From a virus: a stretch of DNA of 40,429 nucleotides. Every line of letters starts with the position of its first letter. Position 1 is the stretch's first letter. Shown here piece after piece: positions 28,983 through 40,429 of this stretch. A program made the position numbers and the translations under genes. The notes below the pieces were generated by a model that had not been told where the DNA came from, made no database searches, and saw nothing but the letters and a program-made list of their open reading frames with translations. The stretch is from the IMG/VR virus record IMGVR_UViG_3300010430_000173, positions 1 through 40,429 of that record; one strand, given 5' to 3'.

Positions 28983-29065
28983 GCCGCAGCCCTCCCCACG
29001 AACTTCTCAATCTCTGCCTCCCACCGCTTCGGCGCGCGATAGGCGGATAGTTGGATGATGGTCAA
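28979..29065 (-). CDS. Very short coupled reading frame (28 codons, TTG start)
   Basis: Encodes MTIIQLSAYRAPKRWEAEIE KFVGRAAA when TTG 29065 is used. AGGAG lies nine bases upstream. Its start overlaps the NinG stop and its stop overlaps the HTH gene start (ATGA), filling the gap exactly. This fits the operon's packing, but the rare start codon lowers confidence. Confidence 0.4.
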   Translation of the reverse strand: MTIIQLSAYRAPKRWEAEIEKFVGRAAA

Positions 29066-29496
29066 AGCCCCGCGCTCCTGATCTTCAGCAGCAGGACGGC
29101 GGGCGTTTCCAGGTCGTCGCCGGGCTGCATGGTTTCAAGCTGCGCTTTGTAGTCTGCGAGGATGTCGGCCTTGTCTTGCTTGGAAAGCTTGATGGTCGTA
29201 TTGCCCAGCCGCTTCAAATAATCCGCGAATTCTTTGCCGTGATAGTTCTCAGTCCACTCGGTGAATTCCATCGGGTTGGCCCCTAAATACTGGTGGCACC
29301 CCCGGCAATGGGAAACGAGATTTGGCGGGTAATAACGTGTTGCCCTTTTCGCACGTCCGCATATGTGGCTCGCATCGAGACCGCGCGCATCGCCCTGCAC
29401 GTACTGCTTACGACAGCGCAGGCAAGTCCAGGCGTCCCTCATTCGAACTAGCGTCGAAAGCACCGTGTCTATCGGGTCTCTTTTGATAGCTGTCAC
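29062..29496 (-). CDS. ninG: NinG/Rap-family recombination endonuclease
   Basis: 144 residues. It has paired zinc ligands CLRC and HCRGCH with the HNH-like ASHICGRAKRATRYYPPNLV (His44, Asn59, His63), followed by the conserved NPMEFTEWTENYHGKEFADY L and a helical tail (LSKQDKADILADYKAQL). This is the Rap/NinG family, which cuts Holliday-junction-like branched DNA during phage recombination. I placed the start at GTG 29496 because AGAGGT lies seven bases upstream; GTG 29505 is also possible. It sits in the lytic early operon, as ninG does in lambda. Confidence 0.87.
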   Translation of the reverse strand: MTAIKRDPIDTVLSTLVRMRDAWTCLRCRKQYVQGDARGLDASHICGRAKRATRYYPPNLVSHCRGCHQYLGANPMEFTEWTENYHGKEFADYLKRLGNTTIKLSKQDKADILADYKAQLETMQPGDDLETPAVLLLKIRSAGL

Positions 29497-29511
29497 TGCT
29501 CTCACCTCTGG

Positions 29512-35703: not shown

Positions 35704-36939
35704 ATGTCCGGCAACGTCGCCACCCTCACCAATACCGACGAGATGCAGCAGCGCATCGCGTCGAAGATCGATCCTGCCGCTGGCAACGGCATGGCCATGA
35801 CGCAACTGCAGGGCGGGGCAACCTTCCTGCCGACGACCGCGGCGGAGGCGATGGAATTCTCAAAGATGATGTCGATCTCCGGCATCATGGTCCGCAAGCA
35901 TTTTCGCAACCACCCCGGCGCCTGCCTCGGCATGGTGATGCAGGCCATGCGCTGGGGCATGGACCCCTTCGCTGTCGCCAACAAAACCTATCTGGTCAAG
36001 AATCGCGATGGCGACGAACAAATCGCTTTCGAGGCGCAACTGATTACGGCGGTCCTGAACACCCGAGCGCCGATCAAGGGGCGGATCAAATACGAGTTCA
36101 GCGGCGACGGCGACAACAAGCGGTGCCGCGCCTATGCACACCTGGCGGAAGTCGACGAAGATCCGGTTGAGGCATGGTCGCCGCCGTTGGGCCAGATCCA
36201 CCCCAAGAACTCCCCGCTTTGGAAATCGGACCCGGAGCAGCAGCTTTGCTACTACACGTCCCGGCTTCTGGCCCGCCGTCATTTCCCGGAAGTCCTGCTC
36301 GGCGTCTATGACCCGGACGAATTGCAGGATGTCGGCAATTATCGCGCCACGGCGGACGGCCGCACGGAAGCGATCCCGCCCCGCCCGACCCGCGCCGACT
36401 TCCAGGAAGTCGAGGAAGCCGAGGAATCGCCCGACCCGTTCCGCATGGTCGATCGCTTCGGCGAGATCATCGCCGATGATATCGACGGGCGCCGCTTCGC
36501 CGGCATGATCCTGCAGCAGTTGGACCAATGCGGCACCGCTGTCGAAATCGAGACGGTGACGGAAGCGAACAGCGACGACATCCAGCGCCTGGACGAGCAC
36601 CAGCGCAACAACATGGAGGAAGGCCTGCGGGCGGCCAATGCGCGCCTGCGCAGCACCGCCAAGGCGACGGGCGCCTACCCGACCGGCACCGCTTACGAGG
36701 ACGCCGAGGAAGCCGTGCAGGAAGCGGAGACGCCCAGCCAGCAGGACGGACCGGCAAACGACGACCCCATGGTCACGATCGCCAACACGGTTGCTGCGAA
36801 GGGCACCAAGGCCCTGGACGGATGGTTCAAGAAGAACGCCGAGGGTCTGGAGTCCGACTGGATGAAGCGGCACGAGAAGGCGTTGCGCGTCAAAGCCGCA
36901 GCGGCCGACGGGCGCCAGGACCAGCCCTCCATGGTCTGA
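35704..36939 (+). CDS. recT: RecT-family single-strand annealing protein
   Basis: 411 residues. The core PGACLGMVMQAMRWGMDPFA VANKTYLV, EQIAFEAQLITAVLNTRAPI, and NSPLWKSDPEQQLCYYTSRL LARRHFPEVLLGVYDPDE are the conserved RecT/Bet signatures. The extra C-terminal 150 residues are acidic and helical, ending with a basic tail. It binds ssDNA, anneals complementary strands and promotes phage recombination. AAAGGA precedes ATG 35704. No nuclease of the RecE, YqaJ or lambda Exo type is found nearby, so a partner must be supplied otherwise or by one of the unknown genes. Confidence 0.9.
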   Translation: MSGNVATLTNTDEMQQRIASKIDPAAGNGMAMTQLQGGATFLPTTAAEAMEFSKMMSISGIMVRKHFRNHPGACLGMVMQAMRWGMDPFAVANKTYLVKNRDGDEQIAFEAQLITAVLNTRAPIKGRIKYEFSGDGDNKRCRAYAHLAEVDEDPVEAWSPPLGQIHPKNSPLWKSDPEQQLCYYTSRLLARRHFPEVLLGVYDPDELQDVGNYRATADGRTEAIPPRPTRADFQEVEEAEESPDPFRMVDRFGEIIADDIDGRRFAGMILQQLDQCGTAVEIETVTEANSDDIQRLDEHQRNNMEEGLRAANARLRSTAKATGAYPTGTAYEDAEEAVQEAETPSQQDGPANDDPMVTIANTVAAKGTKALDGWFKKNAEGLESDWMKRHEKALRVKAAAADGRQDQPSMV

Positions 36940-38443: not shown

Positions 38444-39004
38444 ATGACGACTGCTGACCTGTTCTTAGAAAAAGACGCGGTAATTTCGGACTGCGGAACC
38501 TATCGGTATCTGCTGCGCCGGACATGGGACCATGACCGCCCGCGTGCCCTGTTCGTGATGCTCAACCCGTCAACGGCAGACGCGGACAACGACGACCCGA
38601 CGATCCGTTCCTGCATTCGGCTTTGCCGGTCATGGAAGTATGGCAGCTTTGAAGTCGTCAACCTGTTTGCCTTCCGGTCAACCGATCCGGACGCGCTGTT
38701 AGATGCCGCCGATCCGGTCGGACCAAGCAACACCTACAGCATCGAAGCCGCCGCCAACCGCTGCGACATGATCATCTGCGCATGGGGCGCGCACAAGTCC
38801 GCGACCTATGTGCAGGCTGGGTATCGGCCTTGGGGAACCATGGTTTTTGACCTTCTGAAAACGGCCCAGCGTCCGGCAATTTTCTGCCTCGGCACGACCA
38901 AGAGCGGTGCGCCGAAACACCCCCTATACATTGCGACGGGAACGCCGCTTGTGCGGTTCGATCCGCGTCGGTCCGTCCAGCGAGAGGTCACGGAAAATGA
39001 GTGA
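38444..39004 (+). CDS. DUF1643 family protein
   Basis: 186 residues. Recognisable by YRYLLRRTWDHDRPRALFVM LNPSTADADNDDPTIRSCIR and SFEVVNLFAFRSTDPDALLD, then DMIICAWGAHKS and the late P-x-FCLGTTKSGAPKHPLY. DUF1643 proteins are widespread in phages and some bacteria with no established function; the NPSTAD loop and IICAWG strand suggest a small-molecule-binding Rossmann-like or uracil-DNA-glycosylase-like fold. ATG 38444 follows AGGA. Its end overlaps the next gene by eight bases. Confidence 0.85.
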   Translation: MTTADLFLEKDAVISDCGTYRYLLRRTWDHDRPRALFVMLNPSTADADNDDPTIRSCIRLCRSWKYGSFEVVNLFAFRSTDPDALLDAADPVGPSNTYSIEAAANRCDMIICAWGAHKSATYVQAGYRPWGTMVFDLLKTAQRPAIFCLGTTKSGAPKHPLYIATGTPLVRFDPRRSVQREVTENE

Positions 39005-39191
39005 ACCGAGAAGCCCCCACGATGGCAAGCCGTATTACTGCACAACCTGCGGGCTGGCCTGGGGCGAATACATGGGCTGCTCCGATGTCGATTGCAGCCT
39101 GGAAACCGAGACGGCGGCGCAGCGGCGGGCGGAATTCAATCGCGAAATGGGCGCGGTCTTAGCCGACGCACTGGCGTCCTCCCCTAAATGA
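38997..39191 (+). CDS. Small zinc-ribbon-like protein
   Basis: 64 residues. PYYCTTCGLAWGEYMGCSDV DC gives C-x-x-C, then C and C with about 15 residues between, a single-zinc ribbon. A helical end (QRRAEFNREMGAVLADALAS) follows. It overlaps the DUF1643 gene by eight bases, so it is translated with it. Partner of the same operon; function unknown. Confidence 0.75.
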   Translation: MSEPRSPHDGKPYYCTTCGLAWGEYMGCSDVDCSLETETAAQRRAEFNREMGAVLADALASSPK

Positions 39192-39207
39192 GAGTTGGCC
39201 CTGATGC

Positions 39208-39663
39208 ATGACACAGCCCTTTCTACAGTTTCCCGGTGTCGTTTGGATGCCCGTCAAGGATGGCGACCCACGCGCGCGGGAACTGTTCCGGCGGCACTAT
39301 TCTTACCGCCCTTATGCGGACGGTCGCGACCCGTCTCTATTCGTTGGGCCGGGCGAAAAGATTGTCCTGATTACTCCCTGCCTGCGCGCCTTGCTGGTTT
39401 GGCGGAAGTTCATAAGCGGCGACGGCCAGGAAGGGGTGAATTGTTCGATATTCCGCAACGAGGGCGCCGGCCTTTCCAGCGAATTGATCCTTGCGGCCGA
39501 AGCCCTGGCCTGGGCGCGTTGGCCGGGCGAGCGGTTCTATACCTACGTGAACGGCCGGAAGATCAAGGGGTCAAACCCCGGATACTGTTTCAAGCGCGCC
39601 GGGTGGCGCAGTTGCGGCATCACGAAACACAACCGCTTGGCGATCCTCGAAAAGACGTTGTGA
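39208..39663 (+). CDS. Mom-like GNAT-type protein
   Basis: 151 residues. It contains ARELFRRHYSYRPYADGRDP SLFVGPGEKIVLITP, then RALLVWRKFISGDGQEGVNC SIFRNEGAGLSSELILAAEA LAWARWPGERFYTYVNG, and finally SNPGYCFKRAGWRSCGIT. The FRNEG-x-x-LSSELI and NPGYCFK-x-AGWR stretches resemble Mom-type (GNAT-fold) proteins; Mu Mom modifies adenine in phage DNA so that it resists host restriction. Mom activity is a hypothesis here. No clear ribosome site precedes ATG 39208; TTG or ATG 39204 could be alternatives in other frames. Confidence 0.65.
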   Translation: MTQPFLQFPGVVWMPVKDGDPRARELFRRHYSYRPYADGRDPSLFVGPGEKIVLITPCLRALLVWRKFISGDGQEGVNCSIFRNEGAGLSSELILAAEALAWARWPGERFYTYVNGRKIKGSNPGYCFKRAGWRSCGITKHNRLAILEKTL

Positions 39664-39699: not shown

Positions 39700-40305
39700 A
39701 TGAAGGAATACGCCCTGGTGCCAAGCGTTGGCGACGACGAAATGGTTGACGTGATCGGTATAGGCGAAAACTCCCCGTTTGACCGGCACTATGCCAGCTA
39801 CCTTGAACCGGAAATTGGCGCGCTTCTGGTGTCCGCCTTAAAGGCACGGGATGAGGAATGCCCACGACACCCCGAAACCGCCCCCGATCCGCAGAACACC
39901 GCCGATGGTGGCCAGGGAATTGACATACCTTCACATCTCGAAACGTTGGGGCCATCAAATGCACGGGGTTTCGAGATTGTCGAGGATGCCTGCAATCGGG
40001 TGAAATCCGCCATGTATGCGGGGGTTGGACAGACCCCTATCGACACTGCCAAAACCGCTATCCCGGAACCGGTCCCGCCCCGTACCTTGGGCACCGAATC
40101 CGACCCATCCGATAACGGTACGCAATGGCGAGATATCGACAGCGCCCCGAAGGACGGAACGCGGGTACTCGTAAGCAGAACACCAGAAACCGGTTACGAC
40201 GCCTTGCGCGTCGGCGTTGATCGGTGGTTCCGGGGCCAATGGTGGTGTTCGCGGCGCGACATGAAGCCGACGCATTGGCAACCGCTGCCCAAACCTGTCG
40301 AGTAG
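39700..40305 (+). CDS. DUF551-type C-terminal domain protein
   Basis: 201 residues. The last 70 (QWRDIDSAPKDGTRVLVSRT P, then VDRWFRGQWWCSRRDMKPTH WQPLP) are the DUF551 pattern common to phage proteins. The first 130 residues are less ordered, with an acidic start, and may be a linker. GAAGGA precedes ATG 39700. Function of DUF551 is unknown; its Trp-rich strands suggest a small beta-domain that may bind ligands. Confidence 0.75.
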   Translation: MKEYALVPSVGDDEMVDVIGIGENSPFDRHYASYLEPEIGALLVSALKARDEECPRHPETAPDPQNTADGGQGIDIPSHLETLGPSNARGFEIVEDACNRVKSAMYAGVGQTPIDTAKTAIPEPVPPRTLGTESDPSDNGTQWRDIDSAPKDGTRVLVSRTPETGYDALRVGVDRWFRGQWWCSRRDMKPTHWQPLPKPVE

Positions 40306-40320
40306 GAGGGTTGACCCGGA

Positions 40321-40429
40321 TGGCAAAGAAACCCGCATTCATACCGCTTGAGCGCGAAGACCGATACGGCCCGTTCCGTCTAATGGCCTACGCCGAAGGG
40401 TATGTGATGGCGCGGCGAAAAGGTTGTGC
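40321..40429 (+). CDS. Hypothetical protein, 5' part (continues at position 1)
   Basis: Begins MAKKPAFIPLEREDRYGPFR LMAYAEGYVMARRKGC and runs off the window into the copy at position 1 (see the partial gene at 1-116). AGGAGG precedes ATG 40321. About 62 residues in total. It is a basic, probably nucleic-acid-binding or structural small protein; no family recognised. Confidence 0.7.
40396..40429. repeat. Terminal direct repeat, right copy (contig closure overlap)
   Basis: Identical to positions 1-34. Removing one copy gives a unique length of 40,395 bp. Confidence 0.9.

Follow-up and report, generated by a model that had tools for sequence, protein, structure and literature searches.

Hypermodification of their DNA is one of the main routes by which phages get round restriction, and among the enzymes involved Mom is the best-studied member of the GNAT fold. 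Mom of phage Mu is described as transferring a methylcarbamoyl group to adenine, which protects the DNA from restriction (PMC8072286, PMC8281217, PMC6483171), and Mom is counted among the anti-defence systems (PMC12724379). The structure 8bv8, whose PDB record bears the name 'methylcarbamoylase mom', is that of an inactive mutant altered at Ser124 (S124A). In jumbo phages, Mom domains are described as fused to restriction-endonuclease-fold domains (PMC7824862); the union of a Mom-type domain with a DNA enzyme is an already known theme.

The locus that we compare with these systems lies in IMGVR_UViG_3300010430_000173, a virus record of 40429 bases that was analysed whole and is here called the window. 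Its first 34 bases (1-34) are identical to its last 34 (40396-40429), which probably makes the record a complete genome, by its looks that of a circular or circularly permuted phage. Since it carries an integrase (520-1599), a repressor-type phage regulator (31044-31841) and a RecT-type recombinase (35704-36939), along with terminase, portal, major head and lysis genes recognised in profile searches, the phage is temperate. Three open reading frames on the plus strand close the row of genes on the RecT side, directly before a plus-strand gene (39700-40305) whose product has a C-terminal DUF551 according to Pfam (PF04448); past it lie the genome junction, a few small frames and then the integrase. 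Within the trio, the frames at 38444-39004 and 38997-39191 overlap by 8 nt, and the third, at 39208-39663, starts 16 nt later.

The initial annotation had assigned to these frames a DUF1643 protein, a zinc-ribbon protein and a protein with motifs resembling the GNAT fold of Mom. All three frames are present, and the identity of the first is certain (PF07799, E 2.1e-44, 151.3 bits against a curated cut-off of 22.5), whereas the zinc ribbon comes down to four cysteines (C15-x2-C18 and C28-x4-C33) in a frame of 64 codons that matches no family. Such a pattern would be compatible with a zinc ribbon or knuckle. Searches with the small protein returned no significant family (best Pfam E 0.25, best PHROG E 0.061, no match in NCBIfam or PADLOC), no relatives among the viral contigs searched and, among the best 10 of 21 phage records listed, nothing better than E 0.2; its status as a gene is based on position and codon bias.

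The third frame (39208-39663) is the one with a family behind it. Its 151-aa product matches PHROG 24928 (E 2.5e-27), to which the library assigns no function, and has no match in Pfam, NCBIfam or PADLOC. Relatives were found at 69 viral-contig loci, at 36 bacterial-genome loci whose record titles span many phyla, and in 6 phage records, one of them that of Paenibacillus phage Lily; a search started from divergent relatives led us to keep 80 further loci, some of which repeat earlier contigs. The protein thus belongs to a widespread phage family that lacks a Pfam match. With relatives in this number on viral contigs and in bacterial genomes, the FRNE and NPGYCF-AGWR motifs on which the initial annotation had been built stand beyond chance. 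We recognised no description of this family, or of its fusion with the helicase/methyltransferase discussed below, in the literature searched, in which subscription journals were mostly out of reach.

How close is this family to Mom? An AlphaFold2 model built from 55 aligned family members reached a pLDDT of 92.3, and Foldseek placed GNAT acetyltransferases at the top of its PDB matches, three of them with E up to 0.001. In a structure comparison, Mu Mom S124A (8bv8) came third (Z 12.2, rmsd 2.7, 128 aligned residues, 14% identity); rows no more than 1 below the best count as tied, so the fold is that of a GNAT and Mom is one among several equal matches. On the model, then, the 151-aa protein has a GNAT fold, the outcome foreseen in the initial annotation. 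The likeness to Mom in particular was borne out insofar as Mom is among the best structural matches, but other GNATs are tied with it and no significant sequence link was found.

At the level of profiles, a comparison of 192 aligned family rows with 12 targets gave its best score with a 28-protein Mom alignment (22.8 over 109 columns), followed by a 13-protein Mom alignment (22.0) and, next, a score of 17.9 over 10 columns; ordinary GNATs, an imperfect control with some doubtful frames, scored 11.2. The probability attached to the 28-protein comparison was just 4% (pairwise E 0.009), and the hhalign probability with Mom was 12% at most across comparisons. In these alignments HYS, Ser124 and a G-x-x-Y/C-F block are collinear between the family and Mom. 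When single sequences were compared with the profile, Mom and ordinary GNATs split only as groups (13 and 29 sequences, Mann-Whitney p 0.002). The GNAT control is weak in both comparisons because of doubtful frames among the 29, 23 of which are recognised by their own profile. Searching 13866 frames with the family profile, we found the best Mom protein at E 3.8, behind three unrelated frames. The Pfam model of Mom (PF25680) matched 0/55 and 0/10 members (58 distinct) in a scan reporting E values up to 10 by a program that drops most matches above 0.1; the control, a canonical Mom in locus L033, was matched at E 3.2e-56. Neither the protein nor its profile retrieved a GNAT in a sequence search of the PDB, where the best match was the chance-like 2nt2. 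With no match to PF25680 and no Mom protein below E 3.8, the family is Mom-like and, by the tests made, not a member of Mom; its sequences suggest that it either works like Mom or shares descent with it far back.

Thirteen residues are invariant in the 55 members (H30, Y31, S32, G49, C79, S91, A97, W105, T112, G125, C127, G132 and W133), several of which coincide with features of Mom. H30-Y31-S32 (codons at 39295-39303, plus strand) align with Mom H58-Y59-S60, and the Mom pair H58-Y59, itself invariant in 13 Mom proteins, has its counterpart H30-Y31 in 55/55 relatives. S91 (39478-39480, plus strand) aligns with Mom Ser124, an equivalence that is based on alignment and not on superposed atoms; the Ser124 column does not count as conserved among the 13 Moms, and the aligned rows show either Ser or Thr. 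The stretch 123-133 (NPGYCFKRAGW; 39574-39606, plus strand) aligns with Mom G156-F164, GYCFKRAGW being paired with GVVYQASNF. The other quoted motif, F82-R83-N84-E85 (39451-39462, plus strand), forms in the model and the family alignment a conserved loop before helix 90-104 (F in 52, R in 54, N in 52 and E in 53 of the 55), which we infer to occupy the site of the GNAT phosphate loop. The usual definition of that loop is R/QxxGxG/A, and at positions 83-88 it is matched by just 12/55 members, including the window protein (RNEGAG). N115 (39550-39552, plus strand) aligns with Mom Asp149 and is Asn in 34 members, Asp in 12 and another residue in 9. Besides H58, Y59 and D149, the 13 Moms have G81, E108, G156, Y159, N163, G168 and Y217 invariant and H183 nearly so; the C-terminal region holding H183 and Y217 is absent from the Mom-like family.

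Set against Mu Mom and PF25680, the family thus shares the GNAT fold, the HYS motif, the order and spacing of conserved blocks, a serine (threonine in some Moms) that opens the central helix, and location in phages. It differs in having no significant sequence match, in its mostly Asn residue at the Asp149 position, and in length: the window protein is some 90 residues shorter (151 as against 241 aa) and stops at the GNAT core. Unlike Mu Mom, it has no overlap with a Com gene and is linked to DNA methyltransferases. Could it nonetheless be a true Mom enzyme, making DNA of the N6-(methylcarbamoyl)adenine type? The fold, the equivalents of HYS and Ser124 and the best profile score of 12 speak for this, but with PF25680 absent from all 58 distinct members, Asn prevailing at the Asp149 position and the H183/Y217 region missing, we regard it as improbable. 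Two loci, moreover, carry a canonical Mom besides the Mom-like gene. Adenine, which had been proposed as the target at this locus, is no more than a candidate, as the Asp149 position is usually Asn and the C-terminal region of Mom is missing. The loci with both genes, 2 among the 108 collected around relatives of the Mom-like gene, are L031 (7381-8199) and L033 (11115-11933), where the canonical Mom, recognised by a profile match in the former and by PF25680 in the latter, lies some 2 kb away from the Mom-like gene. An additional gene in L033 has no Pfam match, and we take it to resemble a PAPS-reductase-type protein.

Small size, and the fact that most members have lost the usual CoA loop, would also suit a GNAT-derived insert devoid of catalysis, with a nucleic-acid-binding or structural role. 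Since H30, Y31, S32, C79, S91, T112 and C127, all polar, are invariant in 55/55, the pattern expected of an active site, we give this explanation little credence.

The company that the gene keeps also bears on its function. In Paenibacillus phage Lily, the Mom-like homologue lies just 5′ of annotated adenine and cytosine DNA methyltransferases. An initial count, made with profiles trained on Mom-like loci, found a methyltransferase in 42/108 Mom-like loci and in 15/85 DUF1643 loci (p 0.001; 5 of the 85 are duplicate contigs). As such training introduces a bias, methyltransferases were recounted with Pfam models on whole contigs, namely those of at least 20 kb (40 of the 69 viral loci), merging adjoining pieces of one gene by hand and leaving out sub-threshold matches in G044, G047 and G048 and one weaker piece in G034. 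PF01555 was over the cut-off in 13 contigs and PF00145 in 16, giving 26 contigs in total; in the other 14 of the 40, neither of these two families was found over the cut-off. The gap to the Mom-like gene was at most 1.5 kb in 12/26 contigs, compared with 2.43 expected if that gene is placed anywhere in its own contig (0/20000 random placements were as high), and at most 3 kb in 14/26, compared with 4.63. Both the initial count and the recount include related phages without thinning, so their p-values overstate independence. Measured with profiles made from the loci themselves, methyltransferase density per 10 kb declines with distance from the Mom-like gene, from 0.91 (0-1.5 kb) through 0.63, 0.33 and 0.30 to 0.11 (7.5-10 kb). 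Terminase density shows no such fall, staying at 0.11-0.20 throughout (0.19 to 0.11), and methyltransferase density around DUF1643 anchors (0.20, 0.34, 0.24, 0.31, 0.12) has no peak beside the gene. In the window itself, the profiles tried yielded no methyltransferase match.

In some relatives the two activities would reside in one polypeptide. Eleven frames, 9 of them distinct, have the in-frame order helicase N half, Mom-like domain, helicase C half, methyltransferase (L041, L104, L422, L099, L103, L125, L423, L424, L425, L426 and L430; L041, L104 and L422 are apparently one protein, and L103 is truncated N-terminally). Their record titles, mostly those of metagenome bins, name Azospirillum tabaci (L104), Syntrophomonas (L099), Odyssella (L103) and Luteibacter (L125). 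The fusion partner is a phage SNF2 helicase/N6-N4 methyltransferase: PF01555 was found in 4/4 fusions scanned with Pfam, which are 58-60% identical to L099 over the common part, and the SNF2 match of L099 is weak, slightly under the cut-off. Phage proteins of this type, annotated as DNA helicase/methylase and similar, occur in 311 matching records; among the 40 of these that were listed, the closest 21 match in two or three pieces with 83-88% covered. In three unfused homologues examined, ...AIE... runs directly into ...SVYG..., and at this very point the fused proteins carry a block of about 135 residues. These three, the DNA helicase/methylases of Mycobacterium phage Cerasum, Pseudomonas phage vB_Pae_CF69a and Flavobacterium phage FCL-2, align with the helicase halves and methyltransferase of the fusions and lack the Mom-like insert. 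The jumbo-phage fusions likewise link a Mom-type domain with an enzyme that acts on DNA, but those described here differ in their partner, an SNF2 helicase/N6-N4 methyltransferase, and in carrying the domain as an internal insert.

The loci collected also contain 19 frames with the helicase C half and methyltransferase but without the Mom-like domain, 9 of which (8 distinct) have a separate Mom-like gene in the same locus, numbers that cannot be read as frequencies because part of the loci came from a search with fused proteins. The gaps in these eight are 0, 0, 19, 670, 1096, 1873, 1995 and 2483 nt, with one pair on opposite strands. The strongest sign of a common task on DNA is that one and the same pair is met both as a fusion and as neighbouring genes. 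In a tree with several weak branches, the fused domains group with four stand-alone ones and require 3 changes; the window protein falls outside this group, yet is 54-63% identical to the fused domains. Two further open frames join a Mom-like part to an N6/N4 or D12-class methyltransferase, L277 (725-2494) and L327 (3878-5425). Neither was counted as a fusion, as the Mom-like part of the former looks frame-shifted and the latter could be two genes in one frame. The helicase/methyltransferase of L148 (8760-11600), like that of L156, has a different addition, some 100 residues long, a short way ahead of the site where the Mom-like domain sits in the fusions; the extra stretches of L148 and L150 are unlike the Mom-like insert.

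Because its relatives lie beside or inside phage DNA methyltransferases, the Mom-like enzyme probably modifies DNA, and an anti-restriction function is probable as well. The role in DNA modification proposed at the outset is therefore favoured by methyltransferase proximity and in-frame fusions, though not with the partners then named. Taken together, we read 39208-39663, with confidence that is about even, as encoding a minimal single-domain DNA-directed GNAT, Mom-related or convergent, that acts as a methyltransferase accessory and blocks restriction; its DNA substrate, catalysis by S91 and the anti-restriction role are what we infer from alignment and gene context. Such an enzyme, distantly related to phage Mu Mom or convergent on it, would move a small group from a donor (CoA-type, perhaps acyl-CoA, or other, the binding loop being altered) onto the exocyclic amine of a DNA base. 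H30/Y31 and S91, the latter opening the central helix, would be placed within the active site or close to it, just like their counterparts in Mom. The resulting accessory modification would be laid down alongside that of DNA methyltransferases and block restriction, and in some phages the helicase/methyltransferase would itself carry the Mom-like enzyme.

For most GNATs the substrate is an amine on a protein or a small molecule. Might the Mom-like protein likewise acylate a protein, such as a host restriction or transcription factor or the adjacent methyltransferase, and not DNA? Apart from the usual targets of the fold, this is suggested by the protein and small-molecule acetyltransferases that were level with Mom in the structure comparison, and by the phage GNATs that are known to modify host RNA polymerase (PMC7824862). 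Insertion within a helicase/DNA methyltransferase, proximity to methyltransferases and the restriction of the usual CoA phosphate loop to 12/55 members point the other way and make a protein target rather unlikely. The DNA-directed reading has an extension that goes further and is, for now, rather doubtful: the family may constitute a second, independent phage system for acylation or carbamoylation of DNA bases, working beside or within a translocating methyltransferase. If true, one polypeptide would travel along DNA, methylate it and add a bulkier group, yielding hypermodified DNA that withstands many restriction enzymes simultaneously. In either form, a large Mom-like family to which the libraries searched assign no function, and which sits beside or inside DNA methyltransferases, offers clear candidates for experiment, some of them small, single-domain and easily expressed.

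What, then, of the two genes upstream? A single modification module made up of the DUF1643, zinc-ribbon and Mom-like proteins is what their adjacency on one strand, with overlapping or closely spaced frames, would suggest, and the initial annotation had put it forward as a possibility. Gene neighbourhoods in the relatives argue against it. DUF1643 was found in 0/108 loci around Mom-like relatives, and the Mom-like gene in 1/85 loci around DUF1643 (80 distinct contigs), that one being L196, where the two are about 3 kb apart. As many loci are short, the 40 contigs of at least 20 kb were searched whole, revealing DUF1643 in 1/40, about 17 kb from the Mom-like gene. A small four-cysteine ORF lies upstream in 1/103 relatives (those among the 108 loci with enough upstream sequence), as compared with 19/1226 control genes. 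Of 72 Mom-like loci compared, just 5 have matches to other genes of the window; these matches lie at distances from about 1.5 kb upwards, and neither DUF1643 nor the small ORF is among them. These counts make a one-module arrangement very unlikely; the DUF1643 protein (plus strand, probably a non-partner) and the four-cysteine ORF (plus strand) most probably adjoin the Mom-like gene in this phage alone and stand outside the mechanism. An analogy with Com was also considered, as in the Mu com-mom operon, too, a Mom-type gene is preceded by a small ORF with four cysteines. The likeness is one of gene layout; here the small ORF does not overlap the Mom-like gene and the pair is not conserved, so that gene order, by the counts just given, does not support the analogy.

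Two genes deserve brief comment in their own right. The DUF1643 protein contains, in this order, the motifs MLNPSTAD, VVNLFAFR, AWG and HPLY, which are reminiscent of those of uracil-DNA glycosylases (UDG). Its structure model (pLDDT 88.9) has no clear match in the PDB: DNPH1 is the top row with a Z of 5.7, beneath the meaningful level, and UNG (5gn2) is among tied rows with 4.9. In hhalign, UDG sets scored 12.2-18.5 and six unrelated alignments 8.7-17.1, the ranges overlapping. Further away, 29062-29505 encodes an HNH endonuclease of the NinG/Rap type, where a weak match to an IscB profile (E 0.0016) probably reflects just the common HNH part.
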